Positions 1 to 29,350 of a stretch of 64,000 nt of DNA are shown here, piece by piece; position 1 is the first letter of the stretch, and each line of letters opens with the position of its first letter. The stretch lies in assembly GCF_028715765.1 (NCBI RefSeq), contig NZ_JAQURE010000008.1, forward strand, positions 1 through 64,000. The letters are read 5' to 3'. The stretch comes from Rhodoferax sp. Lineage in GTDB: Bacteria; Pseudomonadota; Gammaproteobacteria; Burkholderiales; Burkholderiaceae_C. The notes beneath the pieces are model-generated. The model made no database searches. It saw only the letters and a list, made by a program, of their open reading frames with translations, and was not told the DNA's origin. A program made the translations under genes and the position numbers.

Positions 1-330
1 GCCACACAGATAAGGCGTGGTGGTTGGGTCAGGTGACCGGGCTTTGGGGGTGAAGGCGCGCGAAAGAGGTGCTAGCGAAATGAGGCCTCAGCCCCGCGCG
101 TGCTTAGGGCTTGTAAAGTAATAACTTGTGCATTTTGATCGCCAGATTTGGGATGCAGGGCTAGGCGCAAAGCGCGCCGTTTAGCTCTGCTAAACAAGCG
201 ATTTGCAACAACGCCATGCGCCCAAAGATGGCTGAGCAAATGCGCATGTTATTGCTTTACAAGCCCTTACCCACGAAACCGCACGCACCTGACCCAGCCG
301 CCGCGCCGTGCCAGAGCCACCAAAGCAGCC
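1..330. repeat. Dispersed palindromic repeat, copy A, split by an insertion
   Basis: The left part (1-106) and right part (267 to about 330) together match copy C at 3592-3744. Both have a GATAAGGCGTGGTGGTTGGG flank, a CCGGGCTTTGGGG arm, a central GCGCGCGAAAGAGG...CCCCGCGCGTG segment, an AACCGCACGCACCTGACCCA arm and a GCCGCGCCGTGCC flank. The arms are imperfect reverse complements, so the unit is a long palindrome. A 160-bp insertion at 107-266 separates the halves. The copy begins at the window edge, so its left neighbour cannot be seen. No gene is supported before rsmG ends at 436. Confidence 0.85.
107..266. mobile_element. MITE-like 160-bp insertion within repeat copy A
   Basis: The element starts GGGCTTGTAAAG and ends CTTTACAAGCCC. 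The terminal inverted repeats extend about 30 bp with few mismatches. It is flanked by TTA on both sides (104-106 and 267-269), consistent with a 3-bp target duplication, and the uninterrupted copy C carries a single TTA at the same place. Internal short inverted repeats (GTTTAGC/GCTAAAC near 179-195 and GGCGC/GCGCC before it) could fold. It has no coding capacity, so it would have to be moved by a transposase encoded elsewhere. Confidence 0.75.
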
Positions 331-435
331 GAACCATGCCAAAGAAATACAACACACAGCTTCAGCGCCTCATGCAAACTAAAGCAAAGCGCGTCGCGAC
401 ACCTCACGACACGTCCAAGTTCAAACAAAATTAGG

Positions 436-1095
436 TCAATCAGCCATACACAGCCAAATCAAGCACCGCTCTGCATCAAGCCCAGGCACATGCAGTTGTT
501 CCACGTGAAACACCTCAACCGCTGGCGGCAATGCAGCCAATTCATCAACGGGATGCTTCCCCTTCATGGCCATCCAAAACCCCTGCTCTGCCAGCAACTG
601 GCGAGAGCCTTGGGTGAAGTCTGCCAGGCTGGCAAAGGCACGTGAACTGATGACTTGGTACTGACCTGTGAGCTGTTCGACCCGCGCATGCACACCACGC
701 AAGTTAGGCAGTTTCAGCGCAGCGGCCACTTGCTGAATAAAAGCTGCTTTCTTACCCACCGCATCCACACAATCCACCTGAATGTCTGGGCAACAAATGG
801 AGATCACCACACCCGGCAAACCAGCACCCGAACCCACGTCCAGCAAACGTGGTGCGGTATCGGCATGTGGCGTGAATGCCTGCAGCCGCTGGCGCAACGG
901 CGCAACCACGGCCAGACTGTCCAGCAGATGGTGCGTCAGCATTTCCACAGGGTCGCGCACTGCCGTTAAGTTGTAGACCTTGGTCCATTTTTCAATCAAA
1001 GCCACATAACGCAACAAGTCTGACACCTGCTGCTCTGACAGCGACAACCCCAGGCTGGCTACACCTTGACGCAGGGGTGTTTCTAAAGTGCGCAT
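436..1095 (-). CDS. rsmG: 16S rRNA (guanine527-N7)-methyltransferase RsmG
   Basis: This 219-residue SAM-dependent methyltransferase modifies G527 of 16S rRNA and is also known as GidB. The SAM-binding motif LLDVGSGAGLPG lies near residues 85-96, preceded by the family segment LTAVRDPVEMLTHHLLDSL. Its length is normal for the family. The start codon overlaps the mnmG stop by one base (TGATG), so the two are translationally coupled, as in many bacteria. A parS site (497-512) sits in the 3' part and encodes VFHVEQ. In many genomes parA-parB follow this gene; here a repeat follows and the window ends. Confidence 0.97.
   Translation of the reverse strand: MRTLETPLRQGVASLGLSLSEQQVSDLLRYVALIEKWTKVYNLTAVRDPVEMLTHHLLDSLAVVAPLRQRLQAFTPHADTAPRLLDVGSGAGLPGVVISICCPDIQVDCVDAVGKKAAFIQQVAAALKLPNLRGVHARVEQLTGQYQVISSRAFASLADFTQGSRQLLAEQGFWMAMKGKHPVDELAALPPAVEVFHVEQLHVPGLDAERCLIWLCMAD
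497..512. other. parS: parS site 1 (inside rsmG)
   Basis: TGTTCCACGTGAAACA matches the ParB-binding consensus TGTTNCACGTGAAACA at every defined position. It is one of three such sites within 1.2 kb, all inside the coding sequences of rsmG and mnmG. Confidence 0.9.
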
Positions 1096-3179
1096 CAGTT
1101 TGCCACGCCCAAGTCGACAGCCTCAGCGGCACCCTTACCCGCTTGCGCTTGTCGCTCAAAACCCTTGAACTTGGTTTTTTTCAAATGGATGGTCAGCAAA
1201 GAAATGCTGGCGGGGGTGATGCCTGAAATGCGCGAAGCTTGCCCCAGCGTCTCAGGCTTGTGGCGGTTCAGCTTTTGCCGTGCTTCAATGCTGAGCGCCG
1301 CCACCTGCATGTAGTCCATGTCTTGCGGAAGCTTCAGGTGTTCGTAATGAGAGGCGCGCTGCACGTCGTCTATTTGTCGGTCAATGTAGCCTGCGTATTT
1401 GGCAGCAATTTCAACCTGCTCGATCACCGTGGCCACAAAAGACTCTGGCCATGCAGGGGTCAACCCCTCAGGTGATGTTTCGCGTGAAACAGCAGGCGTG
1501 AGCTCGGGCTGGACAAACTTGCCAGACTCCAGCGACATGAGGTCTGCATAGCTCACTCCCGGACGGCGTAACAGCTCGGCCAAGCTGTATTCATGTTCAA
1601 TGGCTTTGCCCAGCACACGCTCAGACTCGGCTGAACTCAGGTTTTTGGGACTGACCCACAGCGAGCGCAAGCGTTCTGTTTCACGTGAAACAGCGTCGCG
1701 TTTCTGATTGAAAGCCGTCCAACGGGCATCGTCTACCAAACCCAGCTGGCGCCCCACCTCTGTCAAACGGGCATCGGCATTGTCTTCGCGCAGCTGCAAG
1801 CGAAACTCGGCACGGCTGGTGAACATGCGGTAGGGTTCACTCACGCCTTGGGTAATCAGGTCGTCCACCAACACACCCAGGTAAGCTTGGTCACGCGCTG
1901 GCAACCAAGCCTCGGCCGCATACGAAGCTCTGCCCGCGGCACTGGCAGCCACGTCACCACCGCCCATGGCACGCACCTGCAAGGCAGCGTTGATGCCCGC
2001 AAACAAACCTTGCGCCGCCGCCTCTTCGTAACCCGTGGTGCCATTGATCTGACCCGCAAAAAACAAGCCCTGAATGACCTTGGTTTCGAACGAGCTCTTC
2101 AGCTGCGTGGGGTCAAAGTAGTCATATTCAATGGCATAACCCGGGCGCAAAATGTGCGCGTTTTCCAACCCGGGCATGGAGCGAACCAGCCCGTACTGAA
2201 TGTCAAACGGCAAGCTGGTACTGATGCCGTTGGGGTAATACTCGTTGGTGGTCAGCCCTTCGGGTTCCAGAAAAATCTGGTGGCTTTCCTTGTCGGCAAA
2301 ACGGTTGATTTTGTCTTCCACGCTGGGGCAATAGCGCGGACCCACGCCTTCAATCTTGCCGGTGAACATGGGGCTGCGGTCAAACCCGCTGCGAATGATG
2401 TCGTGCGTTTGCGCATTGGTGTGCGTGATCCAGCACGACATTTGCTGCGGGTGCTGCTCAGGGCGCCCCATGAAGCTGAAAACCGGCATCACCGGACTCA
2501 TGCCACCTGGCATGCCGTCGCCGGGCTGTTCGGTGCATTTTGAGAAGTCGATGCTGCGGCCATCAATGCGTGGCGGCGTGCCAGTTTTCAGCCGGCCCTG
2601 CGGCAACTTGAGCTCTTTCAAGCGCGAGCTCAAAGACACGGCAGGGGGGTCACCCGCACGGCCAGCGGAATAGTTGTTCAGTCCCACATGAATCTTGCCA
2701 TCTAAAAAAGTGCCCGCGGTCAGCACCACCGTGCTGGCGCTGAAGCGAATGCCCACTTGCGTGACCGCGCCCACCACCCGGTCACCCTGCACCATCAAAT
2801 CATCCACGGCTTGCTGAAACAGCCACAAGTTAGGCTGGTTTTCCAATCTGCGGCGAATCGCGGCCTTGTACAAAATGCGGTCTGCCTGGGCACGGGTGGC
2901 ACGCACAGCTGGGCCTTTGGATGAATTCAAAATCCGAAACTGCACCCCCCCCTCGTCGGTAGCAGCTGCCATGGCGCCGCCCAAGGCGTCGACCTCTTTG
3001 ACCAAATGCCCTTTGCCAATGCCACCGATGCTGGGGTTGCAACTCATCTGCCCCAGGGTTTCGATGTTGTGGCTGAGCAGCAAGGTTTTGCAACCCATGC
3101 GCGCCGCGGCCAAAGCGGCCTCAGTGCCAGCATGGCCGCCGCCGACGACGATCACGTCGAAATGTTGTGGATAAAGCAT
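1095..3179 (-). CDS. mnmG: tRNA uridine-5-carboxymethylaminomethyl modification enzyme MnmG (GidA)
   Basis: This is the FAD-dependent subunit that works with MnmE to install the (carboxymethyl)aminomethyl group on wobble U34 of tRNAs. The N-terminal FAD fold [19 protein letters not shown] is at about residues 10-28. Family signatures [11 protein letters not shown] and LKTGTPPR follow, and the tRNA-binding C-terminus ends in SLLTIHLKK plus a tail. I chose ATG 3179 (MLYPQHFD); an upstream in-frame TTG at 3188 adds only three residues. At 694 residues it is longer than the usual roughly 630. Part of the excess lies around two parS sites that encode AVSRET, one near residue 500 and one near 567. 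It is co-transcribed with rsmG. Confidence 0.97.
1476..1491. other. parS: parS site 2 (inside mnmG)
   Basis: TGTTTCGCGTGAAACA differs from the ParB consensus TGTTNCACGTGAAACA at one position (G for A in the first half). On the coding strand it spells part of AVSRET. Confidence 0.8.
1677..1692. other. parS: parS site 3 (inside mnmG)
   Basis: TGTTTCACGTGAAACA is a perfect 16-bp ParB-binding palindrome. It encodes part of AVSRETERL in MnmG. It lies about 200 bp from site 2 and 1.2 kb from site 1. Confidence 0.93.
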
Positions 3180-3325
3180 GGTGAGCAATCGGTGATGGGC
3201 GCCTCAAACACTGCGCGCCAAAGGGAGACAAACAAGTGCTTGATTTTACTGGGGCAGACAAAAACTGCAGCGATGGGGGCGGTTCAAAGTGTTGTGCTTT
3301 GGTGCTGAGGGGATCAAGGGGTCAG

Positions 3326-3744
3326 GGTTTAACCCGGCAGGGCGACTGGGTCAGGCGCATGCGGTTTTGGGGTGAAAGCACGCGCGGGGCTGGCGGCCTT
3401 GGAGCGCCAGCACCTCTTTCGCGCGCATTTCACCCCAAAGCCCGGTCGCCTGACCCAATCACCCTGCCTCACGTTGCTTGGACTCGAATATTTATATTAA
3501 AACAGCCTGTAGCCCATGTATGACAAGCGTAAGCAGCTATTATTTTTGTTGCTTTTCTGCCGTAATAACGTTCTTCAATCCCAAACCGCAGCCACGCAGA
3601 TAAGGCGTGGTGGTTGGGTCAGGTGACCGGGCTTTGGGGGTGAAGGCGCGCGAAAGAGGTGTTGGTGTACTCAAGCCTCAGCCCCGCGCGTGCTTTACCC
3701 CCAAAACCGCACGCACCTGACCCAGCCGCCGCGCCGTGCCAGAG
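3326..3744. repeat. Composite palindromic repeat B-spacer-C
   Basis: Two roughly 150-bp imperfect palindromes in opposite orientation, B at about 3326-3470 and C at about 3592-3744, flank a roughly 120-bp AT-rich spacer. Outer flanks in order are TTTAACCCGGCAGGGCGACT (flank 2), GGGTGATTGGG read on the other strand (flank 4), GATAAGGCGTGGTGG (flank 3) and GCCGCGCCGTGCC (flank 1). The reverse complement of the whole unit, spacer included, aligns with 17449-17910. It fills most of the gap between mnmG (from 3179) and pfp (3893). I see no gene in that gap. Confidence 0.85.
3500..3546 (-). repeat. AT-rich AATAGCT repeat within the B-C spacer
   Basis: On the minus strand this reads AATAATAGCTGCTTACGCTT followed by GTCATACATGGGCTACAGGC. 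It is a member of the AT-rich AATAGCT...AAGCG...TAGAG family seen at eight or more other places in the window, and the sister of the copy at 17688-17736. Confidence 0.75.
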
Positions 3745-3892
3745 AAACCACAACAGCAGATGAGGCACATAAAAAACACCATAGCACCAACCTTACAGCC
3801 CAAAACCCGCGCTGCAGCGTTTTAGCCAAAACGCGCCCCATCAAGTGCACAATGACAAGTTCCATTTCACAGCTTACACAGGACTCTTCTTC

Positions 3893-5110
3893 ATGGCCTC
3901 TGGAAAAATACTCGTTGCTCAAGGTGGTGGCCCGACTGCTGTCATCAACCAATCGCTGGTGGGCGTGGCGTTAGAAGCCCGCCGCTTTGCTCAAATTGGC
4001 CACATTTACGGCGCCCACCATGGTGTTCGCGGCATTGTGGACGAAGACTTTGTCGACCTCACCCAAGAAACCAGTCACAACCTCGAACAAGTGGCCAACA
4101 CGCCGTCCAGTGCCCTGGGCTCCACGCGCGACAAACCTGACGTGGCTTATTGCAAAGAAATATTTCGGGTGCTGCAAGCACACCAGATTGGTCACTTTTT
4201 CTACATTGGCGGCAATGACTCTTCAGACACCGTGCGCATTGTCAGCGAGCAAGCCCGCGCCGCCAGCTACAACCTGCGCTGCATCCACATTCCAAAAACC
4301 ATCGACAACGACCTGGTGGGCAATGACCATACACCCGGTTTCCCTTCTGCGGCACGCTTTGTGGCGCAAGCTTTTGCCGGTGCCAACCTCGACAACGCCG
4401 CCCTGCCCGGCGTTTATGTGGGTGTGGTCATGGGGCGCCACGCGGGTTTTTTAACCGCCGCATCGGCCTTGGGCAAAAAGTTTCCAGACGACGGCCCGCA
4501 CCTGATCTACCTGCCGGAGCGCACCTTTGTGCTGGAGAAATTTCTGGCGGATGTCAAAACCACTTACGAACGCTATGGCCGTTGTGTGATTGCGGTGTCT
4601 GAGGGCATTCACGATGCCACTGGCACACCCATCGCCGCGCTGCTGGCCAAGGAAATGGAACATGATGCACACGGCAATGTGCAGCTCTCGGGCAATGGCG
4701 CCCTAGCCGACCTGCTGTGCGAAGAGATCAAGTCAAAACTGGGCATCAAGCGCGTGCGTGGCGACACCTTTGGTTACCTGCAACGCAGCTTCATTGGATG
4801 CGTCTCTGATGTGGATCAGCGCGAAGCCCGCGAGGTGGGCGAAAAGGCCGTGCAATTTGCCATGTGGGGCGGTCGCGATGGCTCGGTGGCCATCAAACGC
4901 ACCGGCTTTTACTCGGTGGACTATGAACTGCTGCCCATCGAAGAAGTGGCCGGCAAAACCCGCGTGATGGAAGACGAATTCATCGCCCCCAGCGGCACCG
5001 ATGTCACCGACGCTTTTCGCCTGTATTTGCGCCCCCTGCTGGGCTCTGGCATGCCTGACGCTTTTCGACTCAGGCACAACCCGGTGGCCAAGGTTTTAAT
5101 GAACAAATAA
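3893..5110 (+). CDS. pfp: Pyrophosphate-dependent 6-phosphofructokinase
   Basis: Catalyses the reversible phosphorylation of fructose 6-phosphate, probably with PPi rather than ATP as donor. Seen: an N-terminal GGGPTAVINQS loop (residues 11-21), GGNDSSDT (106-113), PKTIDND (134-140), MGRHAGFL and SEGIHD. In this superfamily a lysine at the start of PKTIDND goes with PPi use. At 405 residues it fits the roughly 400-residue proteobacterial PFP group. I chose ATG 3893 because an AGGA lies about 10 nt upstream; an upstream in-frame GTG at 3845 has no such support. It appears monocistronic, and an AT-rich repeat follows its stop. Confidence 0.9.
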   Translation: MASGKILVAQGGGPTAVINQSLVGVALEARRFAQIGHIYGAHHGVRGIVDEDFVDLTQETSHNLEQVANTPSSALGSTRDKPDVAYCKEIFRVLQAHQIGHFFYIGGNDSSDTVRIVSEQARAASYNLRCIHIPKTIDNDLVGNDHTPGFPSAARFVAQAFAGANLDNAALPGVYVGVVMGRHAGFLTAASALGKKFPDDGPHLIYLPERTFVLEKFLADVKTTYERYGRCVIAVSEGIHDATGTPIAALLAKEMEHDAHGNVQLSGNGALADLLCEEIKSKLGIKRVRGDTFGYLQRSFIGCVSDVDQREAREVGEKAVQFAMWGGRDGSVAIKRTGFYSVDYELLPIEEVAGKTRVMEDEFIAPSGTDVTDAFRLYLRPLLGSGMPDAFRLRHNPVAKVLMNK

Positions 5111-5160
5111 GGCTCTAGTGCTTATATATTAAACGTGAGTAGCTATTTTTAGCATAGCGT
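5111..5160 (-). repeat. AT-rich AATAGCT repeat downstream of pfp
   Basis: On the minus strand this reads AAATAGCTACTCACG then TATATAAGCACTAGAGCC. It shares the AATAGCTACTCACG start with the copy at 51226-51272 and the AAGC(A/G)CTAGAGCC end with the copy at 25919-25970. Confidence 0.7.
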
Positions 5161-5273
5161 TTGAATACCCTTATTGGAAGCGCATTGTCGCCGTGCAAGG
5201 TACGATTTAACGCATCTGTAGCTCTCAGATTTGCAGCTTTCAGTGACTCACCCCTACCCTCAAGGAGAACCCT

Positions 5274-5882
5274 TTGAAACTTTATTATTCCCCCGGTGCA
5301 TGCTCTCTGTCGCCACACATTGTGTTGAAAGAGTCCGGCCTGGCGTTTGAAGCCATTGCCGCCCCCACCAAAACCCACAAATTGCTTGACGGCACAGACT
5401 ACTACACCATCAACCCATTGGGCTATGTGCCTTTTTTGGTGCTCGATGATGGCCGCACCTTGCACGAGGGACCAGCCATCGTGCAATACATTGCCGACCA
5501 AGTGCCAGACCAACAGCTGGCACCGGCCAACGGCAGCTGGGAGCGCTACAAACTGCAGGAATGGCTCAACACCATCAGCACCGAGTTGCACAAAGGGTTT
5601 TCGCCACTGTTCACGCCCGGCATGCCCGCCGAGGCCAAAGACATGGCCAAAACCCGCCTGCAGTCACGCCTGACTTGGGTCGATGGTGAACTCGCAGGCA
5701 AAACCTACCTGATGGGCGACACCTTCACGGTGGCAGACGCCTACTTGTTTGTGGTGGCCGGCTGGAGCAAACATGTGGCGGTTGACATCTCGGGTTTAAG
5801 TCACCTGGTGGCGTTCATGGCTCGGGTGGCTGCACGGCCTGCTGTTCAAGCCGCGATGCGCGCTGAAGGCTTGATCAAATAA
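5274..5882 (+). CDS. Beta-class-like glutathione S-transferase
   Basis: This 202-residue cytosolic GST has an N-terminal thioredoxin fold (residues 1-78) and an all-alpha C-terminal domain. The start MKLYYSPGACSLSPHIVL is characteristic of bacterial beta-class GSTs, where the cysteine at residue 10 contacts glutathione. A cis-proline context (GYVPFLVLDDG) and the ES-like segment LHEGPAIVQYI are present. The GGAG about 9 nt upstream supports the start. It is a single gene followed by a strong hairpin terminator. The substrate is unknown; it is probably involved in electrophile or peroxide detoxification. Confidence 0.9.
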   Translation: MKLYYSPGACSLSPHIVLKESGLAFEAIAAPTKTHKLLDGTDYYTINPLGYVPFLVLDDGRTLHEGPAIVQYIADQVPDQQLAPANGSWERYKLQEWLNTISTELHKGFSPLFTPGMPAEAKDMAKTRLQSRLTWVDGELAGKTYLMGDTFTVADAYLFVVAGWSKHVAVDISGLSHLVAFMARVAARPAVQAAMRAEGLIK

Positions 5883-5900
5883 ACCCCGTCGCCTCCAACG

Positions 5901-5928
5901 AAAAAAGCCGCTTTGCAGCGGCTTTTTT
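5901..5928. terminator. Bidirectional intrinsic terminator between gst and the cytochrome operon
   Basis: AAAAAAGCCGCT-TTGC-AGCGGCTTTTTT is a perfect inverted repeat with a six-base A run and a six-base T run. It should act for the GST gene on the plus strand and for the cytochrome operon converging from the right. Confidence 0.9.
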
Positions 5929-5948
5929 CATGGCGGTGAAGCTCTCAA

Positions 5949-6527
5949 TCAATAAGCCAACACCAACTTGTCAAGCTCTGCCTTGGTGATGGCGGGCACA
6001 GTGCCACGGGCTTTGAAACGGTTCAGGTTCCAGGCGCCTTCACCCAGCCAAGCCTTGAGCACTTTCAAATTGGCAGCGCACTCAGCGTCGTTGCCTTTTT
6101 CGCACAGGTATTTGTACATGTTGCCCGGTTTGCCACCAGCATATTGGCTGGTGCCGTCATCCAAGCGGCGCATGAATGCACCTGCATCTGGGTAAGCAAT
6201 CAGCTGAATGACAGTTTCATAGGTGTCGTTGCGTGGGCCCAATTTTTCTTTCTTGTAATGGTCTACGCTCAAGTCGTATTCTTTCAAGGTGGGCGCGCCA
6301 GCCTTGGCTGAATGGCAGTCGGCACAGTACTTGGCGAACATGGGCGCCACATCTTTGCGGTAAGACACCACCTCTTTAGCGGGCAGGGCGGTGTTTTTAA
6401 CAGCGGCCACTGGGGTGGCAGGCGCAGCTGGGGCAGTGGCCGCAGACGTTGCCGCACAGGCACCCAAGATCACAGGCACAGCCACAGCCACACAGACAGC
6501 GGCAACCACACGGTTCAATTTCATCAT
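5949..6527 (-). CDS. Monohaem c-type cytochrome, probable lipoprotein
   Basis: This protein of about 192 residues has an N-terminal signal ending in a lipobox-like LGAC near residue 22, then an Ala/Pro-rich tether, then a single CADCH haem-binding motif. It is therefore probably anchored to a membrane on the periplasmic side. Two adjacent ATGs (6527 and 6524) follow an AAGGAG; either could be used. It is the last gene of a three-gene cytochrome operon, and its upstream neighbour is the tetrahaem quinol dehydrogenase. I infer a role as partner or acceptor of that protein. No enzymatic domain was recognised. Confidence 0.85.
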   Translation of the reverse strand: MMKLNRVVAAVCVAVAVPVILGACAATSAATAPAAPATPVAAVKNTALPAKEVVSYRKDVAPMFAKYCADCHSAKAGAPTLKEYDLSVDHYKKEKLGPRNDTYETVIQLIAYPDAGAFMRRLDDGTSQYAGGKPGNMYKYLCEKGNDAECAANLKVLKAWLGEGAWNLNRFKARGTVPAITKAELDKLVLAY

Positions 6528-6556
6528 CTCTATCTCCTTCAGGTTAAAACTCAACA

Positions 6557-7150
6557 TCAGTTTGTCTTGGCCGCAGCCTTGCCAAACAACTCACTTGGCC
6601 CTGGGCCTTCTGGCTCATGGTGCGCAATCCCAAAATGGCACTCAATGCATGTTTTGCCATCTTCCTTGGCTTTGGCATGGCGCTTTTGAGCCTTTTCAGA
6701 CTGTAAATCCACACTCATCTTGTCGGCACGGTGGCAACTGCGGCATTGGTGCGAGTCGCTCTCGATCATGTCTTTCCAAACCCGGTGCGCCATGGTGGCA
6801 CGCTTGGCTTCAAACTTTGCAGGTGTGTCAATGGAAGGCGAGATGTAGGTGTAAAACACATCTTTAGACGCCTTGATCTTGGCCCAAACCAGTGGCCCGG
6901 GTTCGTGCGGCACGTGGCAGTTGGTGCAAATGGCACGCACACCGGTGCGGTTGGTGTCGTGAATCGTGCCTTTGTATTCAGCCAAGTTGTAGGTCATTTC
7001 ATGACAACCGGTGCAGAACTCTTCGGTGCTGGTGTAGGCCAGCACATAAGCACCCGACACACCCACGCCCACAGAAAAGATGAACAAACCAAACAGCAGG
7101 CTCACCGTCAGCTTCCACCGCCGACGCAAGATTTGAAAAATTTCTTTCAT
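6557..7150 (-). CDS. Tetrahaem NapC/NirT-family cytochrome c
   Basis: This membrane-anchored quinol dehydrogenase of 197 residues has one N-terminal transmembrane helix (about 14-36) followed by four CxxCH motifs: CTGCH, CTNCH, CRSCH and CIECH. NapC/NirT proteins oxidise quinol in the membrane and pass electrons to periplasmic reductases or soluble cytochromes. No reductase (NapA, NirS, TorA) is nearby, so the acceptor is likely one of the two flanking monohaem cytochromes. It lies 13 nt downstream of the class I cytochrome gene. Expression is probably anaerobic through the FNR box at 7609-7622. Maturation would depend on the ccm operon at 10.4-17.4 kb. Confidence 0.93.
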   Translation of the reverse strand: MKEIFQILRRRWKLTVSLLFGLFIFSVGVGVSGAYVLAYTSTEEFCTGCHEMTYNLAEYKGTIHDTNRTGVRAICTNCHVPHEPGPLVWAKIKASKDVFYTYISPSIDTPAKFEAKRATMAHRVWKDMIESDSHQCRSCHRADKMSVDLQSEKAQKRHAKAKEDGKTCIECHFGIAHHEPEGPGPSELFGKAAAKTN

Positions 7151-7163
7151 GGCAAATTACCGA

Positions 7164-7514
7164 TCAACGCGACAAGATGTACTTGACAGCGTTTTTGATT
7201 GCTGCGTCATCTTTGGCTTTCATTTTTTGATGCTGCTCTTTGGCGCCATCAATTTCAATGGTGGGCGCGGTGGTCAGGTGGGTAAACAGCTTGGCTTCGG
7301 CGTCGGCCTTGCCTTTGTATTTGGCAGCTGTCTTTTGAAATGACGGGCCATCTTTTTGCTTGTCCACCGAGTGGCACTTGCCACATTTGTTGACTTTGAT
7401 CAGGTCTTCGGCCGCAGCCACATCCACCGCTTGGGCTTGCACAGCCAAAGCACCAGCGGTCAAACCCACTGCCAACAACGCGCGCAACACATTTGAAAAT
7501 TGAACTTGTTTCAT
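7164..7514 (-). CDS. Class I cytochrome c, periplasmic
   Basis: This 116-residue precursor has a Sec signal (cleavage probable after AQA, residues 26-28) and one CGKCH haem motif near residue 47. A methionine in HQKMKAK is a candidate distal ligand. ATG 7514 is chosen over 7520 because AAAGAGG sits 6 nt before it; the earlier ATG would abut the ribosome binding site. It is the first gene of the cytochrome operon, about 95 bp from the FNR box. Small cytochromes of this type shuttle electrons in the periplasm. I infer that it accepts electrons from the NapC-like protein. Confidence 0.92.
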   Translation of the reverse strand: MKQVQFSNVLRALLAVGLTAGALAVQAQAVDVAAAEDLIKVNKCGKCHSVDKQKDGPSFQKTAAKYKGKADAEAKLFTHLTTAPTIEIDGAKEQHQKMKAKDDAAIKNAVKYILSR

Positions 7515-7583
7515 ATACATCCTCTTTGACTTAAAAAATTAACAAAAACTTAAGATTTGATGGGGTGTCATCCTACTCTCATG

Positions 7584-7622
7584 AAAATAAACCTGAAACC
7601 CCAATAAGTTGATTTAGATCAA
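7584..7622 (-). promoter_or_regulatory. FNR/ANR box with a class II-type promoter for the cytochrome operon
   Basis: TTGATTTAGATCAA at 7609-7622 matches the FNR/ANR consensus TTGATNNNNATCAA perfectly. On the minus strand a TATTTT hexamer (7589-7584) lies where a -10 element would fall if transcription began near 7576, placing the box about 40 bp upstream of the start, as in class II FNR-activated promoters. The box also lies about 240 bp upstream of the divergent rquA. The rest of the 7515-7850 gap shows no other feature. Confidence 0.8.
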
Positions 7623-7859
7623 CAGAGAAGGGATTTCAAAGCCCTTTTCACTCAAAAAACTATCGAAAACCCTTGCGTAAAAACCCTTCGGTACAAACCC
7701 TGCCATGGATTCCACCCCAACCCCATGGGGAAACAAAACTTAAGTTAGCATAGAACCAAGCTGATTGATTCTTGTCCGAATTTCAACGCACTCACACAAC
7801 TGTTGTACCAGCTGCATGGTTGACACTGCAACCACCCACTCATTAAACCTGTGCCACCA

Positions 7860-8570: not shown

Positions 8571-8597
8571 GGGCTTGTAAAGCCCAATAACCGTGCA

Positions 8598-17448: not shown

Positions 17449-17910
17449 TCTGGCACGGCGCGGCGGCTGGGTCAGGTGCGTGCGGTTTTGGGGGCAAAAC
17501 ACGCGCGGGGCTGAGGCCTCATTTCGCCAGTACCACTTGCGCGCGCCTTCGCCCCCAAAGCCCGGTCACCTAACCCAACCACCACACCTTATCTGTGTGG
17601 CTACAAAGCCCAATTCAAATGCAATGCTTGTTTTTCACGTTATCAGTACGTGCGGAACTAGAGTTTTTTGGCTGTAGAAAAACAATAAAAATAATAGCTG
17701 TTTATGCTTGTATTACATGGCCTACAGCCTGTTTTCTTATAAATCGTCGAGTTCAAACTACGCAAGGCAGGGTGATTGGGTTAGGTGACCGGGCTTTGGG
17801 GTGAAATGCGCGCGAAGAAAGTTTTCGCACACTGAACCGTCAGCCCCGCGCGTGCTTTCACCCCAAAACCGCACGCACCTAACCCAGTCGCCCTGCCGGG
17901 TTAAACCCTA
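17449..17910. repeat. Composite palindromic repeat D-spacer-E
   Basis: Palindromes D (about 17449-17600) and E (about 17764-17910), oppositely oriented, flank an AT-rich spacer. The outer flanks run in the order 1, 3, spacer, 4, 2, exactly the reverse of B-spacer-C. The spacer half nearest E aligns with the B-C spacer over about 90 bp; the part next to D (17601 to about 17670) does not. Each palindrome has a GCGGTTTTGGGG arm and a CCAAAGCCCGGTC arm around a GC-rich centre containing CACGCGCGGGGCTGA or its complement. No gene is supported between ccmI and minC. Confidence 0.85.
17688..17736 (+). repeat. AT-rich AATAGCT repeat within the D-E spacer
   Basis: Reads AATAATAGCTGTTTATGCTT then GTATTACATGGCCTACAGCC. 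It is nearly identical to the minus-strand sequence at 3500-3546, so the AT-rich unit is part of the composite element. Confidence 0.75.
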
Positions 17911-20412: not shown

Positions 20413-21912
20413 TCAGAGCACCTTGGTGCGCTGACTCCAACGCCGGTACAGCGGTGGCACCAGCAGCATGGTCACCACACCGATCCACAGGCCTTTGCAA
20501 ATGGCGCTCTCCAGCAAAATGCCGAGCTCGCCATTGGTGATGGACAATGCGCGGCGCAGGTTTTGCTCCATCAAGTCGCCCAGCACAAAGCCCAGAATCA
20601 GCGGCGCCATCGGAATGCCTTGCTTGCGCAGCAAATAGCCGCCAATGCCCAACCCAGCCATCAGCACCAAATCAAACGTGGTGGCATGCACCGAGTACAC
20701 CCCGACCGCGCTGATGGCCAAAATACCTGGCACCAGCAGCCAGTTGGGCACCAGCAAAATGCGTGTGAACAAGCCCACCAGCGGAATGTTAATCAACAGC
20801 AGCAGCACGTTGCCAATGAACATCGACGCAATCAAGCCCCACACCAGCGCCGGTTGCTGGGTAAACAGTGCCGGGCCGGGTGTGATGTTGTAGAGCGACA
20901 GCGCGCCCACCATCACCGCCGTGGTACCGGAGCCCGGCACACCCAGCGTCAGCATCGGGATGAACGAGCCGTTGGCCGAGGCATTGTTGGCTGCCTCTGG
21001 CGCACACACGCCGCGAATGTCGCCCTTGCCAAACGTGCCGTATTTGTCGCTCAAGCGTTTCTCAACCGTGTAGGCCATGGCGCTGGCAATGGTGGCGCCC
21101 GCACCCGGCAGCACACCCACTATAAAACCCATCACCGCCGAGCGCACCGTGCACCACCAAGTGTGTGCCATTTCTTGCAAATTGAACAGGTTGCGCCCGG
21201 TCTTGCGGATCAAGCCACTGGCGTTGGCCCGGTGCTCCAGCATCAGCAAAATCTCACTGACCGAAAACAGCCCAATCACCACCACAATGAACTGGATGCC
21301 GTCGCTCAAATGCACGTTGTCACCGGTGAAGCGGTACACGCCTGAGTTGGAGTCCAGCCCCACGGTCGAGAGCGACAAGCCAATCACCGCTGCCAGCACC
21401 GCCTTGAGCGGCTCGTTGCCCATCAGCCCGGTGATGCAGGCAAAGGCAAAACACATCAGCGCAAAATATTCTGCCGGGCCAAAGGCCAGCGCCCAGCGTG
21501 CCAGCAGCGGCGCAAACAGCACAATGCCGGTGGTGGCAAAGGTTGAACCCACAAAAGAGCTCCAGGCTGAAATGGACAACGCTACGCCGCCTTGCCCTTT
21601 GACTGCCATGGGGTGGCCGTCGATGGCCGTCATGATGGCGCCAGCATCGCCTGGCACATTGAGCAAAATCGACGAAATGCGTCCACCAAATTCACAGCCA
21701 ATGTAAACCGCAGTCAGCAAAATCAAGGCGGTCTCAGGCGGCAGTTTCAGGGCAAACGCCAGCGGCATCAACAGCGCCACGCCGTTGATCGGCCCCAGGC
21801 CGGGCAACATGCCCACAATGGTGCCAATGAACGCGCCAATGGCAGCCACCAGCAGGTTGATCGGCATCAACGCTACGCCAAAGCCTTCCAGCAGATGATT
21901 CAAGGTGTCCAT
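20413..21912 (-). CDS. tctA: Tripartite tricarboxylate transporter large membrane subunit TctA
   Basis: This polytopic membrane protein of about 499 residues has the family repeat motif [12 protein letters not shown] (about residues 30-41) and its second copy [20 protein letters not shown] (about 263-282). With TctB and the binding protein TctC it imports a carboxylate, driven by an ion gradient. ATG 21912 overlaps the tctB stop (TGATG); the frame also has a TTG one codon earlier. The substrate is not readable from sequence, but the TctDE-like regulators at 26.8-29 kb suggest citrate or another tricarboxylate. Confidence 0.94.
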
Positions 21913-22385
21913 CAACGCCCTCCAAGCAGAAATGACAGCACGCCGGTGGGCAACACCACGTCGAGCAGTTTGTCAAACATCAGGTAAAACCCCAGCCCCA
22001 TCACCACCCCACCCAGCAGCGTCTTCTTGAGCGTGCCGCCAAACGCCATGCCCACCGGCACTGCCATCAAGCTGGTGGCCAGCCAAAACCCCAGGGTTTG
22101 GAACAAAGCGGTGTAGATCAGGCAACTGGCCGCACACAGCGTCACAGCTTTCCAGTCCAGTGCTGAGGTGGCCGCCAGCACCGGCGTGCCAGATGCCACG
22201 CCATGTGCAGGTTTTTTAACCAACAGCCAGACACCGGCCAAGCCCATCAAGGTCGCCAGCAAGGTGGGAAAGGCACGCGGCCCCACCGGCTCGTAAGAAA
22301 TTTCGGCTGCATAGCCGTGTGCCGCCCAAGCCATGGCCAAAGCCACCACCAGGCAGACACCTCCCAAGATGCGATCACCCATCAT
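21912..22385 (-). CDS. tctB: Tripartite tricarboxylate transporter small membrane subunit TctB
   Basis: This 157-residue membrane protein has four predicted helices (starting MGDRILGGVCLVVALAMAW and ending near GFYLMFDKLLDVVLPTG), typical of TctB. It is coupled to tctA by a one-base overlap. A 62-bp gap containing an AT-rich repeat separates it from tctC. Confidence 0.9.
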   Translation of the reverse strand: MMGDRILGGVCLVVALAMAWAAHGYAAEISYEPVGPRAFPTLLATLMGLAGVWLLVKKPAHGVASGTPVLAATSALDWKAVTLCAASCLIYTALFQTLGFWLATSLMAVPVGMAFGGTLKKTLLGGVVMGLGFYLMFDKLLDVVLPTGVLSFLLGGR

Positions 22386-22397
22386 GAAACCTTAAAA

Positions 22398-22442
22398 AGT
22401 AGAGCTGCTCACGCTTATTCCATAAGCGCTAGAGGCCAATTT
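22398..22442 (+). repeat. AT-rich AATAGCT-type repeat between tctC and tctB
   Basis: Reads AGTAGAGCTGCTCACGCTTA then TTCCATAAGCGCTAGAGGCC, a typical family member with the inner inverted repeat CGCTTAT/ATAAGCG. Being inside an operon it will be transcribed and could fold between the two cistrons. Confidence 0.75.
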
Positions 22443-22447
22443 ACCAG

Positions 22448-23434
22448 TTAGTTCGCCACCTTCAAATTGAAGTCTTTGGCCAATTGGCGGTAGGCTGTCA
22501 TGCGCTCTTTGATGAAGCCGTCGAGCTCTTTTCCTGTCAGGGCAAATTTGAACAAGCCGCGCTCCACACGCAGCTTGTCGTAGGCGGGGGTGGCCATCAT
22601 CTTGGCAAAGGTGTCGCTCCACACTTTGTAGTCGGCATCGCTGACCTTGGGCCCCATGTAAAAGCCGCGAATGATGGGCCATTGGACGTTGTAGCCCTGC
22701 TCTTTCATGGTTGGCACACCAGCGAGCTTGCCCTCCAGGCGCTCGCCTGCCAGCACCGCCACCACGCGAATCTTGGCTCCGGCTTTCATTTGCTCTTCAG
22801 CCTCAGAGGCATCGCCCGAATACACCTGCACATGGCCCCCTTGCAGTGCCGTGATGGCCTCGCCACCGCCTTCAAAGGCGACAAACCGCATCGCTTTGGG
22901 GTCCAGCCCGGCGGCGCGTGCTGTGAGTGCGGCTTTCATCCAGTCTTGGCTGCCGACGCTGCCGCCAGCGCCAAACACCACCTTGCTCGGGTCGGCCTTG
23001 ATGGCAGTCACCAAGTCTTGCATAGTTTTGATGGGCGAGTTTTCGGCCACGATCACCGCACCAAAGTCACTGCCCACAGCGGCCAGCCAGCGGACATCGT
23101 TTTCGTTGTAGCGGCCAAACTTGCCTTGCGCCAGGTTCAGCAGTGAGCCCCCCGAAAATGCCACGATGGTGTTGTTTTCCGCCGGGCGTTGCGCCACGAT
23201 GGCGTTGTAGGCCACGGCGCCAATACCGCCGGGCATGTAGCTCACACGCATCGGGTCGGCGGTGTATTTGCCGTCTAGCAACGCGCCTTGCGCCAGCTTG
23301 CAAGTCAAATCAAAGCCACCACCTGGCTTGGCCGGTGCCACACATTCGGTTTTGTCCAGTGGGCCGGCCAATGCCGACAAACTCAACCCAGCAACGCAGG
23401 CCACAGCGGCCCATGAAACATGATGCAGACGCAT
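22448..23434 (-). CDS. tctC: Tripartite tricarboxylate transporter substrate-binding protein (TctC/Bug family)
   Basis: This periplasmic solute-binding precursor of 328 residues has a Sec signal with cleavage after ALA (residues about 22-24). Bug-family features include CVAPAKPGGGFD near the mature N-terminus, PGGIGAVAYN, and the domain-hinge region around GAGGSVGSQDW. ATG 23434 is preceded by AGGAG at 7 nt, which rules against a longer N-terminus. It is first gene of tctCBA and diverges from katG across 258 bp. The ligand is unknown. Confidence 0.93.
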   Translation of the reverse strand: MRLHHVSWAAVACVAGLSLSALAGPLDKTECVAPAKPGGGFDLTCKLAQGALLDGKYTADPMRVSYMPGGIGAVAYNAIVAQRPAENNTIVAFSGGSLLNLAQGKFGRYNENDVRWLAAVGSDFGAVIVAENSPIKTMQDLVTAIKADPSKVVFGAGGSVGSQDWMKAALTARAAGLDPKAMRFVAFEGGGEAITALQGGHVQVYSGDASEAEEQMKAGAKIRVVAVLAGERLEGKLAGVPTMKEQGYNVQWPIIRGFYMGPKVSDADYKVWSDTFAKMMATPAYDKLRVERGLFKFALTGKELDGFIKERMTAYRQLAKDFNLKVAN

Positions 23435-23623
23435 GAAAAATCTCCTGTAAGTATGTTGAACATGCCGCTTGACCGCCAGCCGGTGGTTGCGACATGGGGG
23501 TGACTGTAGAAAAAAGAGCCTGTCAATCACCTTTCAAAAACCCGGCTCAAAAATCAGTGGAAACCCTTGGTGACTTTATTCATGGTCATAGTCATAGTTC
23601 ATTGACCCTATTGAATGAATTGA

Positions 23624-25897
<2,274 letters not shown>

Positions 25898-25918
25898 AGT
25901 TTGAGGTTAAAAAACTAC

Positions 25919-25970
25919 TGAATAAATAGCTGCTTATGCTTTATACATAAGCGCTAGAGCCTTATTTGGC
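25919..25970 (+). repeat. AT-rich AATAGCT repeat downstream of katG
   Basis: Reads AAATAGCTGCTTATGC then TTTATACATAAGCGCTAGAGCC. This is one of the best-preserved copies, with both the AATAGCTGCTTATGC left half and the ATAAGCGCTAGAGCC right half. Confidence 0.8.
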
Positions 25971-26014
25971 ACTTAATATTTGCCATAAACCAGCTGCAAC
26001 TAGAGCGTGTCAAC

Positions 26015-26042
26015 TTGACGAGGTATCTGTTCTACATATACT
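26015..26042 (+). promoter_or_regulatory. Probable sigma-70 promoter of the toxin-antitoxin pair
   Basis: TTGACG (26015-26020) and TATACT (26037-26042) are spaced 16 bp. A direct repeat of ATACTTG (26038-26044 and 26051-26057) overlaps and follows the -10 element and is a candidate operator for autoregulation by the antitoxin. AAAGGAG precedes the start at 26084. Confidence 0.6.
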
Positions 26043-26083
26043 TGAAAACATACTTGTCAGATTGAATCAAAGGAGTTTGCGCC

Positions 26084-26314
26084 ATGTCTCAAATCACGCT
26101 GTACCTTGACGATGCCACACAGGCACTGGTTGACCAAGCTGCCAAGGCGCATGGGTTGTCAAAAAGCCGCTGGGTGACAGACATCATCCGCAAATATGCC
26201 TCCCATGAATGGCCGCAAGATTGCCTGGCATTGGCAGGACGGTTTCCTGACTTTCCTCTGTGCAATGACAGCTCTGGCACGCTGCCTGACGATGCGCCAC
26301 GCATCAGCTTTTGA
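26084..26314 (+). CDS. Ribbon-helix-helix antitoxin (VapB-like)
   Basis: This 76-residue protein starts with a ribbon-helix-helix module: ITLYLDD strand, then helices through LVDQAAKAHGLSKSRWVTDIIRKYA (residues 3-40). Its C-terminal tail (about 41-76) would bind the toxin. It lies 9 nt upstream of a PIN-domain toxin gene, the normal antitoxin-first order. It probably represses its own promoter through the ATACTTG repeats. Confidence 0.88.
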   Translation: MSQITLYLDDATQALVDQAAKAHGLSKSRWVTDIIRKYASHEWPQDCLALAGRFPDFPLCNDSSGTLPDDAPRISF

Positions 26315-26323
26315 TGGCCTGCC

Positions 26324-26728
26324 ATGCTGATTCTCGATAGCAACATCATCAGCTACTACTTTCGAGGCGACCTACAAGTGGTGCCGCGTCTGCAGGCTCT
26401 GCGCCCTATCGATTTGGGTGTGCCAGCCATTGTGGAATATGAGCTGCGCTATGGGCTGCAGCGTATGGCTCCCGAGGCGGCCGCACCTCGCTTGGCGGCC
26501 TTGGCTCAATGGCTGCAACCCTTGCAAATTTTGCCGTTTGACAGCGAATGCGCCAACCATGCGGCGCGTATTCGCGTCGCCTTGGAAGCCGCAGGCACAC
26601 CCATCGGCGCACACGACACGCTGATTGCCGCCACCACCCTGCGTTATCAAGCCACGCTGGTCACACGCAACGTGCGCGAATTTTCTCGTGTACCGGGCCT
26701 GCAGTGGCTGAACTGGCATCAGGCTTGA
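26324..26728 (+). CDS. PIN-domain ribonuclease toxin (VapC-like)
   Basis: This 134-residue PIN nuclease has conserved acidic residues in LILDSNI (Asp5), the glutamate of VEYELRYG (about residue 40) and GAHDTLIAATT (Asp about 97). VapC toxins cleave tRNA or rRNA and halt translation; the target cannot be predicted. The fourth acidic position, often a TxNxxDF motif, reads TRNVREF here, so an Asp is replaced by Glu. It forms an operon with the antitoxin and ends convergent with the sensor kinase gene. Confidence 0.88.
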   Translation: MLILDSNIISYYFRGDLQVVPRLQALRPIDLGVPAIVEYELRYGLQRMAPEAAAPRLAALAQWLQPLQILPFDSECANHAARIRVALEAAGTPIGAHDTLIAATTLRYQATLVTRNVREFSRVPGLQWLNWHQA

Positions 26729-26838
26729 TGAGCAAACGGTCGGCGTATCAGGATTCCGTCAGGATGTTCAGAGGGCTTTGGCGAACAGCCTTCAAAAAAC
26801 CATGATCCGACCGCCACCAACACATGTGCAAGCCCCGG

Positions 26839-28332
26839 CTACAGTGGCCAATGCAGGGTCACGGTAAGCCCTGGTGTGGGGCTTGCTGCGTCGGTGGTCC
26901 GCAAACTTAAATCTCCGCCGTGGCGTTGCACGATGGCTTTGGCTATGGCTAACCCCAGACCTGAGCCACTGCTTTGGGCGCTGCCACGGTAAAAACGCTC
27001 GCCAGCGCGCGCCAACTCTGCGCTGGTCATGCCCGGGCCGTTGTCGATCACCCGCAGCACGGCTTGTGCGGGGCTCAATGCAGGCAGGTCTGGTTGTTCA
27101 ATGCCAGCCTGCACCGTGACTTTGGAGCCCGGTGGCGTGTGGTGCAGAGCGTTGTGCAGCAAATTGGTCAGCGCCTCCTTGAGCAAACCCGCATGGGTGC
27201 TGACTTCGGCTGGCAAATTGCCCAAAGGCTCAAAGCCCAGGTCAATGTGCCGTGAGCGCGCGTCAGGCCAGGCCGCACGTGTGACCGCTTGTGCCAATGC
27301 GATCAGGTCACAGGGTTCCATGTGCCACTCCAGCGTGTCAGCGCGGGCCAATGCCAGCATTTGGTTGGTTTGTCGCACCGTGTCATCCACTTGCAATTTA
27401 ATAGCTACCAGCGCTTGTTTCATAAGCGCTGCATCGGGTTCTCTGAGGGCAAAACTGACCTGTGTCGAGAGCGTGGTCAGGGGCGTGCGCAGTTGGTGTG
27501 AGGCATCGTCAATGAAGCTTCTGCGCGCCTGCATGGCTTCTCGGTAGCGCATCACATGGTGGTTGATAGCCTCCACCAAGGGCTGCACGTCTTGGGCAAT
27601 GTGGTGCGCATCCAGCGGGGTCAGGTCTTGCGGGTCGCGCTGCAACACCTCTTGGCGCAAGCGCTGCAGCGGCCGCAGCGACCAGTTCACCGCCAGCACC
27701 AGCAGCGCCAGGCCAGCCAGCAGCAGCAGCAGGTCGCGCGCCACGGTTTCCATCACCAGCTGGCGGGTGAAGTCTTGCCGGCTCTCCAGCGTTTCACCAA
27801 TCTGAATCACCACCTGGCGCGAATTGGAGCCGCTTGACAGTGGCCGTGCCAACGCACGCGCATAAGAGCCCAGCCGAATCGGCTCACCGTAATACAGCGC
27901 GTCGCTGAACTGCGGCTGGCCATTGACCAGTGGGCGGGGTGCCCCAGGTAGGTCGGCGTTGCCAATCTCCACCAGGCCGTCGCCGCTGGCCACGCGGTAA
28001 AACACCCGGCCGTTGGCGGTTAGCTCAAAAAACTCCAGCATGCGGTAGGGCAGCTCGACCGACAGCCCACCACTGGCAGTCGAAATATTGGCATCCATGG
28101 CCTTGATGGCACCCAGCAGCGAGCGGTCGTAAGCGGCATTGGCAGCAGCCAACGCAGTGCGCCAGCTCACCACAATTTCCAGCCCCATCACCAGCAGCAT
28201 GCCGGGCAGCAACACCAGCAGCAGCGTGCGGCGCAGGCTTAAACGGCGCAGGCGGTGAAGACCGAACCCGCGCCGTGGTTCACCCGCTGGTGCAGGCTCG
28301 GTGTCGTCAGATGGCGGATCGGAGTTGGACAT
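26839..28332 (-). CDS. TctE-like sensor histidine kinase
   Basis: This 497-residue membrane sensor has helix 1 at about residues 36-58, a periplasmic sensing region (59-199), helix 2 at 200-217, then HAMP-like and HisKA regions (phospho-acceptor His279 in DDASHQLRTPL) and HATPase with N, G1 and G2 boxes (NLLHNALHHTPPG, DNGPGM, GSGLGLAIAKAIV). It resembles TctE, which controls tricarboxylate uptake. Residues 301-314 are encoded by an AT-rich repeat (27398-27431). It overlaps the response regulator gene by one base. Likely targets are the tctCBA genes 3 kb away. Confidence 0.9.
   Translation of the reverse strand: MSNSDPPSDDTEPAPAGEPRRGFGLHRLRRLSLRRTLLLVLLPGMLLVMGLEIVVSWRTALAAANAAYDRSLLGAIKAMDANISTASGGLSVELPYRMLEFFELTANGRVFYRVASGDGLVEIGNADLPGAPRPLVNGQPQFSDALYYGEPIRLGSYARALARPLSSGSNSRQVVIQIGETLESRQDFTRQLVMETVARDLLLLLAGLALLVLAVNWSLRPLQRLRQEVLQRDPQDLTPLDAHHIAQDVQPLVEAINHHVMRYREAMQARRSFIDDASHQLRTPLTTLSTQVSFALREPDAALMKQALVAIKLQVDDTVRQTNQMLALARADTLEWHMEPCDLIALAQAVTRAAWPDARSRHIDLGFEPLGNLPAEVSTHAGLLKEALTNLLHNALHHTPPGSKVTVQAGIEQPDLPALSPAQAVLRVIDNGPGMTSAELARAGERFYRGSAQSSGSGLGLAIAKAIVQRHGGDLSLRTTDAASPTPGLTVTLHWPL
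27398..27431 (+). repeat. AT-rich AATAGCT repeat in frame inside the kinase gene
   Basis: Plus strand reads TTTAATAGCTACCAGCGCTT then GTTTCATAAGCGCT. This differs from the intergenic copy at 55806-55862 (minus strand) at only a few positions over 34 bp. On the coding strand it supplies residues 301-314 (AALMKQALVAIKLQ) without breaking the frame. Confidence 0.75.
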
Positions 28333-28997
28333 CAGTCGCTCTCCAGCACGTAGCCCAGGCCACGCACGGTGGTGATGTGCACGCCAGTTTTGTCTAGGCG
28401 TTTGCGCAGTCGGTGCACCAGCACTTCCATGGCTTCTGGCTGCACGTCAACCTCGTCTGAAAACACGCGCTCCATCAAGTCGCGCTTGGACATTGGTTCG
28501 CCACTGTGTTGCACCAGCGCGCACAGTGCCGCGTGCTCACGCGGTGTCAGGCTCAGGGGCACGTGTTTCAACAGCAGTTGCTGGCTCACCGGCTCATACA
28601 CCAGTGGGCCGCAGGCAAAGCGCGGATGGTCGCTGCCGCGGGCGCGGCGAATCAATGCCAGCAAGCGCGCCTCCAGTTCAGCCAGCTCAAACGGCTTGGC
28701 CAGAAAGTCATCAGCGCCTTCGCGCAGCGTGCTCACGCGCTCCATCAGCGAGTCGCGTGCCGTCAAAATCAGCACCGGCAAACGCTGCCCCGCGTCACGC
28801 AGTTCAGCCAGCACATCATGGCCATCGCGCCCGGGCAGCCCCAGGTCAAGAATCAGCGCGTCATAGCGGCTGGCTTTCAGGCTTGACCGCACCAAGCGGC
28901 CGTCATTGACCCAGTCCACCTGAAACTGGCTTTGCTGCAACGCCTGCACCAGCCAGGTGGCCAAGGCAGGTTCATCTTCGGCCAACAGAATGCGCAT
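28332..28997 (-). CDS. TctD-like OmpR-family response regulator
   Basis: This 221-residue protein has a receiver domain (1-115; acidic pocket EDE at residues 7-9, phospho-acceptor Asp51 in LILDLGLPG, Lys in DDFLAKPFE) and an OmpR/PhoB winged helix (about 125-219, with LTPREHAALCALV and VLVHRLRKRLDKTGV). ATG 28997 gives the canonical MRILLAEDE start; an upstream ATG at 29006 adds only three residues. It is first gene of the two-gene regulator operon. Confidence 0.92.
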   Translation of the reverse strand: MRILLAEDEPALATWLVQALQQSQFQVDWVNDGRLVRSSLKASRYDALILDLGLPGRDGHDVLAELRDAGQRLPVLILTARDSLMERVSTLREGADDFLAKPFELAELEARLLALIRRARGSDHPRFACGPLVYEPVSQQLLLKHVPLSLTPREHAALCALVQHSGEPMSKRDLMERVFSDEVDVQPEAMEVLVHRLRKRLDKTGVHITTVRGLGYVLESD

Positions 28998-29189
28998 AAA
29001 GATCAATCGGGTTGAGGGAGTTGACCAAGTTTAGGGCGTACCCGCGGTTGCGGTTCAAATTGATGTGGACTTGTTCCCGCTCTCTAAGGTGTGGGTGGAT
29101 GGCCGTGTCGCTTTGGCTGGTTTGGCTGGTGTTGGGGTGTCTCTGGCATGGTGGCGGTGAGGGTTTCTCTGGCGCTCTGCTACTTGGGT

Positions 29190-29350
29190 GGCTCTGGCAC
29201 GGCGCGGCGGCTGGGTCAGGTGCATGCGGTTTTGGGGGCAAAACACGCGCGGGGCTGATGTCTCAGTGCGCCAGCACCGCTTGCGCGCGCCTTTGCCCCC
29301 AAAGCCCGGTCGCCTGACCCAGTCGCCCTGCCGGGTTAAACCCTAGACAC
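29190..29350. repeat. Dispersed palindromic repeat, solo copy F
   Basis: A single palindrome in the orientation of B and D. Its left flank is type 1 (GGCACGGCGCGGCGGCTGGG) and its right flank type 2 (CAGTCGCCCTGCCGGGTTAA). These two flanks are the outermost ends of the composite elements, and the spacer and inner flanks are absent. It lies in the 28998-29409 gap between the response regulator and the AbrB-family gene. I see no gene there. Confidence 0.85.

Follow-up and report, generated by a model that had tools for sequence, protein, structure and literature searches.

What spreads the long palindromes found in a 64,000-nucleotide stretch of a Rhodoferax sp. contig (NZ_JAQURE010000008.1, positions 1 to 64,000; hereafter the window)? 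An earlier note on this DNA had described six of them, A to F, each about 150 bp long, and had recognised no known insertion sequence (IS) family behind them. Our analysis indicates that the palindromes are very probably the interior of non-autonomous DDE transposons, miniature inverted-repeat transposable elements (MITEs), moved in trans by a transposase of the ISKra4 family. The genome containing the window is G000 (the own genome); other genomes, contigs and fetched loci are cited by G, C and L numbers, respectively.

The family was confirmed at the places noted and is real, far beyond chance, although the palindromes measured ~135 bp rather than 150. They are imperfect hairpins (referred to as P, ~135 nt). 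B and C, as well as D and E, are paired head-out around a spacer to form composites, and F is single. All six were located, A being one palindrome interrupted by a foreign insert of ~159 bp. B-spacer-C and D-spacer-E are reverse complements of each other including the spacer, as had been claimed (78% identity on the minus strand, blastn). The flank scheme of the note also holds by eye across the composites of the own genome: the outer flanks are GGGTTTAACCC-like on one palindrome and GTGCCAGAG-like on the other, composite C88 having lost one end. In F both outer flanks stand on a single palindrome, with the junction within the shared TGGGTCAGG arm, which suggests that F arose from a composite by deletion. 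No genes were called in the elements of the window by a crude codon-usage gene finder, and the absence of a transposase gene from the copies was borne out.

Terminal repeats, target duplications and sites without P

Many P units were found inside elements bounded by a terminal inverted repeat (TIR) of ~22 bp, GGGTGCGATTCAAAGTGATGTG, and flanked by 9-bp target duplications. A TIR was scored when it agreed with the consensus in at least 15 of 22 positions within 250 bp of the P unit, with wrongly oriented repeats and shuffled flanks as controls. Units with less than 150 nt of flank and identical duplicates were left out, and the tabulated counts omit the triple locus L074. With the limitation that flanks of related copies are not independent, the TIR was present at 31/54 ends of composites in other genomes (wrong orientation 0, shuffled 1), 13/30 ends of own composites (1 and 0), 34/136 ends of singles in other genomes (0 and 0) and 4/16 ends of own singles (0 and 0). 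Within the window it stands at both ends of the element holding F, which has a 7/9 duplication, at the left end of B-C, whose duplication is 8/9 and whose right TIR is unrecognisable, and at neither end of D-E.

Altogether 46 distinct elements shorter than 900 bp, a non-random sample, were bounded by two TIRs; the duplication was exact (9/9) in 9 and at least 7/9 in 21. Those bearing P were 239-762 bp long, and those with two P 563-762 bp. Exact 9/9 duplications flank the P-bearing elements L092 (two P), L295 and L329 (one P each). The last two, single-P elements with TIRs of their own, speak against the composite of 420-460 bp with opposed palindromes being the only conserved unit. The many-copy composite stands, but it is not the full mobile unit; other species frequently have single palindromes, and TIR elements often lack P. 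Read outward, the arms linking P to the TIR are A/C-rich, unlike generic leaders.

Relatives provided sites without P. Both mnmG-pfk anchors were found in nine other genomes. The intergenic region measures 69-130 bp in G002, G003, G004, G005, G009, G010, G020 and G021, as opposed to 655 bp in the window; this is too short for P, so P is missing in these eight relatives. G008 has a different TIR element at this site; its inverted ends read GGGTGCGATTCAAACTGAGGTGG / CACATCACTTTGAATCGCACCC, its 9-bp duplication is exact, and the same ends also bound many P units. The site of palindrome F lacked P in all four other genomes having both anchors (G002, G003, G010 and G013).

The TIR shell also occurs without P. 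TIR matches with at most one mismatch numbered 241 in G105 and 101 in G103, and neither genome has an R1 match (R1 is the covariance model of P described below). The elements read in these two genomes contain several unrelated-looking palindromic interiors. TIR-element interiors, among them several with palindromes seemingly unrelated to P, were more stable than their shuffles in 33/44 cases (z < -3, 30 shuffles each). A subfamily in G080/G076 comprises three copies with P and three lacking all or part of it, with differing break points; this deletion claim rests on one MAFFT alignment of six elements. One P-less copy, L328, has kept a 9/9 duplication. A TIR element can thus do without P, and P is lost through deletions, a frequent fate of long palindromes.

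Could P instead be an independent mobile palindrome with its own route of spread, often residing inside ISKra4-type MITEs? Copies without a recognisable TIR exist at two gene pairs, cysD-cysN and livK-livH, and in a second genus (g135), and the occurrence of other palindromes in MITEs with the same TIR also agrees with this idea. The relatives of P in the second genus are longer (161-178 nt), and at three of its loci (L172, L173 and L179) outward pairs enclose ~0.9-1.3 kb with different putative genes. Of three enclosed proteins, one had a weak Pfam match and two had none; these loci could be gene-carrying relatives of the composite. On the other side, the exact 9-bp duplications adjoin the TIRs and not P, and the three P-less G080/G076 copies look like varied deletions in or around P, not like empty sites. 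We consider an independent P unlikely.

The candidate mobiliser and the sites of insertion

The earlier note's finding of no known IS family has to be revised: the genome that harbours these TIR-bounded copies also contains an ISKra4-family IS with the same TIRs. The IS is 1,421 bp long (match at C1:119244) and scored 212 bits with the NF033572 (ISKra4) profile, the cut-off being 205. Its TIRs agree with the consensus in 20/22 positions at each end, and its duplication is 8/9. The combination of 9-bp duplications and GGG ends suggested the ISKra4 group (ISfinder table), a prediction tested once, with the NF033572 profile. In G069 there is a copy that matches this element in three blocks at 97.7-98.9% identity and shares its left TIR. 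Two own contigs, C20 and C69, end 127 bp inside identical TIR-led sequences encoding a similar protein start, ends that are likely caused by an unassembled multi-copy IS.

The TIRs, the duplications, the P-free sites in relatives and the own IS with matching TIRs together identify the elements as ISKra4-type MITEs. For the copies with TIRs, function-likeness and identity agree. They show a TIR within the 18-39 bp range and a duplication within the 8-9 bp range of the group, share TIRs with an IS of the host, have no coding capacity and are inserted preferentially just upstream of promoters. D-E and the other TIR-less copies are probably ISKra4-type MITEs as well, judging from their sequence, and would represent decayed elements. 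The mobile unit would consist of TIR, A/C-rich arm, one or two P, arm and TIR, with a 9-bp target duplication. In two-P elements the F strands (the strand of P on which G.T pairs stand out; not to be confused with palindrome F) would point outward around a spacer with the AGCTGCTT repeat. The ISKra4-family (prokaryotic Mutator-like) transposase would act on these elements in trans, and P would be carried either passively or for a host function.

Positions of the elements relative to promoters were examined at 146 TIR ends. Hexamers resembling the -10 box (5/6) peaked 38-40 nt outside the TIR, at 17/146 ends; in 300 circular shifts the mean was 6.4 and no 3-nt window exceeded 10. The count is consensus-based and some of the ends are related, two of the 17 (both in L332) having near-identical flanks. 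A second rise was seen at 29 nt (9 ends). For the own ISKra4 element the distance is 39 nt. Mutator-like elements are reported to make 8-9 bp duplications, and several ISKra4-group members to insert upstream of sigma-A promoters (PMC3942029). A preference of the elements studied here for insertion just upstream of sigma-70 promoters would fit the positions of the composites, since none of the 15 in the own genome lies between convergent genes. Eight lie between divergent genes, seven between tandem genes and none within a gene. The 26 composites of other genomes divide into 9 divergent, 13 tandem and 3 convergent cases plus one inward pair between convergent genes (crude gene finder in both sets).

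Several observations weigh against an ISKra4-type MITE origin. In most own composites no more than one TIR could be recognised: both were found in 2/15 at the 15/22 threshold and in 0/15 at 16/22. Around D-E, TIR and target duplication were both sought and neither was found. The TIR scan was likewise negative at cysD-cysN and livK-livH (L028, L057, L072, L147, L182-L191, L194 and L195). Among the 46 two-TIR elements 25 fall short of a 7/9 duplication, including most of those read in G103, and many of the 46 loci had been fetched for holding the TIR. The NF033572 profile matched in only 3 of 18 TIR-bearing genomes, above the cut-off in the own genome only, and had no match in G105, the genome richest in TIRs. 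In the own ISKra4 gene the coding sequence runs over two overlapping reading frames, the second of which alone scored 183 bits, under the cut-off; this layout may reflect either decay or a programmed frameshift. The ISKra4 gene of G103, which is uninterrupted, scored below the cut-off and has different ends. An uninterrupted transposase gene bearing exactly these TIRs was not seen, and the IS-family searches were confined to ISKra4 and Y1. An autonomous copy was sought in 20 of the smallest own contigs (2.5-4 kb) without an IS match. When the reading frames beside ten unpaired TIRs (G103, G080, G064 and G031) were looked over by eye, without a family-library search, one transposase was recognised, in L331, which we take to be IS6-like.

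Distribution of P and its structure on one strand

R1 was built from 70 hairpins. Searches over more than 40 genomes were run with stricter filters, and many of the genomes are fragmented metagenome-assembled genomes. The B-C query gave 74 blastn matches in the own genome and R1 gave 77, reverse-strand echoes counted. The latter make up 15 composites, 8 singles, palindrome A and a partial copy on C9; 37 own hairpins scored above 127 bits. By blastn with B-C, 19 of 60 genomes in the relatives set (own included) matched, all within the genus. R1 matched in 33/89 Rhodoferax genomes, own included, in 4/299 genomes and 2/141 genera of the family, and in 1/399 genomes of the order, the own one only (strict filters). 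A hairpin pattern scan of named genomes returned at least 102 stretches among the matches listed. Eight of its records came from distant or unplaced taxa (L070, L079, L081, L091, L104, L116, L132 and L142), and R1 had no match in any of them. Searches of phages, plasmids and viral contigs gave no match, and a phage or plasmid origin of the palindromes was rejected.

The hairpins for the orientation plots and for the cys/liv comparison were hand-picked from hit lists. Among 37 plotted loci with at least two hairpins 35 contain an outward pair. The gap measures 80-242 bp in 31 of these and 913-1276 bp in the other four. L064, with an inward pair, and L066, with its hairpins in the same direction, depart from this pattern, and L074 contains a third hairpin. 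A TIR lies next to each hairpin of the 1,122-bp pair of L118, which probably consists of two single-P elements with a host gene between them. Distinct hits in G060 and G069 were always more than 400 bp apart.

Inverted doublets, singles and structure on one strand are also what would be expected if P were a large repetitive extragenic palindrome (REP), the composite a REP doublet forming a hairpin (REPIN) and a REP-associated tyrosine transposase (RAYT, a Y1 transposase) the mover. A Y1_Tnp protein is present in 79/89 genomes of the genus, with a single match in G000. It is also present in genomes without P (G035 and G062), however, and the contig with the own RAYT, C23, has no P. At the RAYT loci the gene is followed by a AGCTGCTT-type repeat, clear by eye in ~5/10 loci read and degenerate in the others. 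Moreover, P is ~135 nt long compared with 20-40 for REPs, and its elements have TIRs with 9-bp duplications, which are not a known Y1 feature. The Y1_Tnp search thus showed no link between P and the RAYT that the earlier note had put forward as a possible mobiliser. With P outside the 20-40 bp range and no RAYT flanked by P, a REP/RAYT origin is disfavoured, and we regard it as very improbable.

The AGCTGCTT..AAGCGCTA repeat occurs in the window at 3510, 22403, 25928, 51229, 55824 and 59247 (6 matches with at most 3 mismatches, 0 expected). It is also found 3' of the RAYT gene near gltB in several genomes, and may be a repeat belonging to that RAYT.

The alignment of the hairpins (A1, only hairpins containing TGCGGTTTTGG) has 39 pairs, 21 of them changed on both sides, and 96.6% of the cells are paired; none of 500 shuffles equalled this. 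On the F strand there are 344 G.T cells and 19 A.C cells; the strand was picked since G.T pairs stood out there, and the asymmetry was counted afterwards. Fixed wobbles on this strand include two U.G pairs (61/70 and 56/70 sequences) and one G.U pair (70/70). With the two U.G pairs left out, 18 pairs showed G.T only and 2 pairs A.C only. Both strands of palindrome C fold strongly relative to dinucleotide shuffles (F strand z = -9.7, opposite strand z = -7.4). In composites both F strands point outward from the spacer. As a cruciform would favour neither strand, it is apparently one strand of P, either RNA or single-stranded DNA, that is under constraint. A strand-biased mutation process could produce the G.T excess, but it leaves the fixed wobble pairs unexplained. 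Rfam searches of one composite and one cys-locus P gave only microRNA models far under threshold, and P as a known Rfam RNA family was rejected, no score exceeding the gathering threshold.

The compensatory changes and the strand asymmetry also agree with P being a cis-acting RNA element (mRNA stabiliser, leader or insulator) whose spread is secondary, as do its fixed intercistronic copies. Orthologous single copies occur at 8 cysD-cysN loci, own genome counted (CysD and CysN identified in L188). Orthologous copies are also present at 8 livK-like/livH-like loci, one of them with two P (domains identified in L182). The orientation of these copies speaks against such a role. The F strand is antisense in all 7 cysD-cysN loci with a cysD call. 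At livK-livH (L182-L187, L057 and L072) the hairpin occurs in both orientations across species, being antisense in five loci and sense in two, with one of each in L072; this mixture speaks against a simple mRNA role of the sense strand at livK-livH. In 60 singles of other genomes orientation was near random (29 co-directional with the downstream gene, 31 opposed). A scan of the B-C intergenic region (3189-3860) found no U-tract terminator, and a role as 3'-untranslated region or terminator, to which the gene context lent no support either, was rejected. Overall, a cis-acting RNA element with secondary spread appears doubtful.

A reading that unites structure and mobility is that P is a portable module functional as a single strand (RNA or single-stranded DNA), delivered to promoter regions by ISKra4-type MITEs and kept at cysD-cysN and livK-livH as a mobile leader or insulator, its structure being selected on the outward-facing strand. 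We propose this tentatively, as possible but not probable.

Features of the window and comparison with known systems

The coordinates are collected in Table 1. The insert within A is itself palindromic, with TTA at either side, and an end motif like that of this insert adjoins the ISKra4 copy of G069 (L339). An inverted pair of parS-like TGTTTCACGTGAAACA sites lies inside mnmG next to rsmG (1476-1506 and 1662-1692). The sole Rfam match in the window, RF02837 anti-hemB (56984-57069), lies away from the palindromes.

Table 1. Palindromes and element parts in the window
Feature	Position	Strand	Remarks
Palindrome A, right half of composite at contig start	12..302 (approx.)	F strand +	R1 partial match 11-143
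MITE-like insert of ~159 bp within A, unrelated	107..265		ends GGGCTTGTAAAG / CTTTACAAGCCC
B-C left target duplication copy	3266..3274		TGCAGCGAT
Full MITE holding B-C	3275..3812		left end set by TIR, right end by duplication alone
B-C left TIR	3275..3296	+	19/22 to consensus
Palindrome B (P)	3336..3471	structured F strand -	hairpin module
B-C spacer	3472..3600		AGCTGCTT..GGGCTA repeat at 3510-3538 (minus strand)
Palindrome C (P)	3601..3735	F strand +	
B-C right target duplication copy	3813..3821		TGCAGCGTT, 8/9
Palindrome D (P)	17457..17591	-	
D-E spacer	17592..17762		
Palindrome E (P)	17763..17897	+	best TIR candidate around D-E 13/22
F left target duplication	29037..29045		CGTACCCGC
Full MITE holding F, 349 bp	29046..29394		TIRs 19/22 and 18/22; missing from four relatives
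F left TIR	29046..29067	+	
Palindrome F (one P, both outer flank types)	29201..29335	-	
F right TIR	29373..29394	-	
F right target duplication	29395..29403		CGTGCACGC, 7/9

A likely mobiliser can now be named for a repeat family that seemed orphan, one MITE shell has been shown with several unrelated palindromic interiors, and a natural set of promoter-adjacent transposon insertions is open to study. If P is functional, new regulation could arise in an unusual way, from a structured RNA spread by a promoter-seeking mini-transposon. In a literature search with little coverage of subscription journals, no publication on ISKra4 MITEs was found, judged by title and abstract, and none combining Rhodoferax and miniature inverted-repeat elements. 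Passages from the R. ferrireducens genome paper (PMC2755013) concern clustered regularly interspaced short palindromic repeats (CRISPR).

Among known systems, the ISKra4 group (p-MULT 4, prokaryotic Mutator-like) is the nearest relative. As described in PMC3942029, the group shares 8-9 bp duplications, inverted repeats of 18-39 bp and insertion upstream of promoters with the P elements, and the own genome encodes an NF033572 protein with matching TIRs. The P elements differ in having no transposase gene and an interior of one or two hairpins. They resemble other bacterial MITEs in being short, TIR-bounded, non-coding, intergenic and multicopy with target duplications, but hold a conserved one-strand structure of ~135 nt, and the same TIR shell encloses several unrelated palindromes. 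With REP/REPIN systems they share intergenic palindromes in inverted doublets and singles, and differ in the size of the palindrome, in the TIRs with 9-bp duplications and in that a RAYT link was not found. An integron attC site, expected to come with an integrase and a cassette array, was considered as a further candidate. The beta-proteobacterial repeat element (BRE), a GC-rich intergenic repeat, is reported from Rhodoferax and other betaproteobacteria (PMC3110155). By its description BRE differs from P in length and arrangement: it is ~75-91 bp long, often tandem, and also present in Bordetella.

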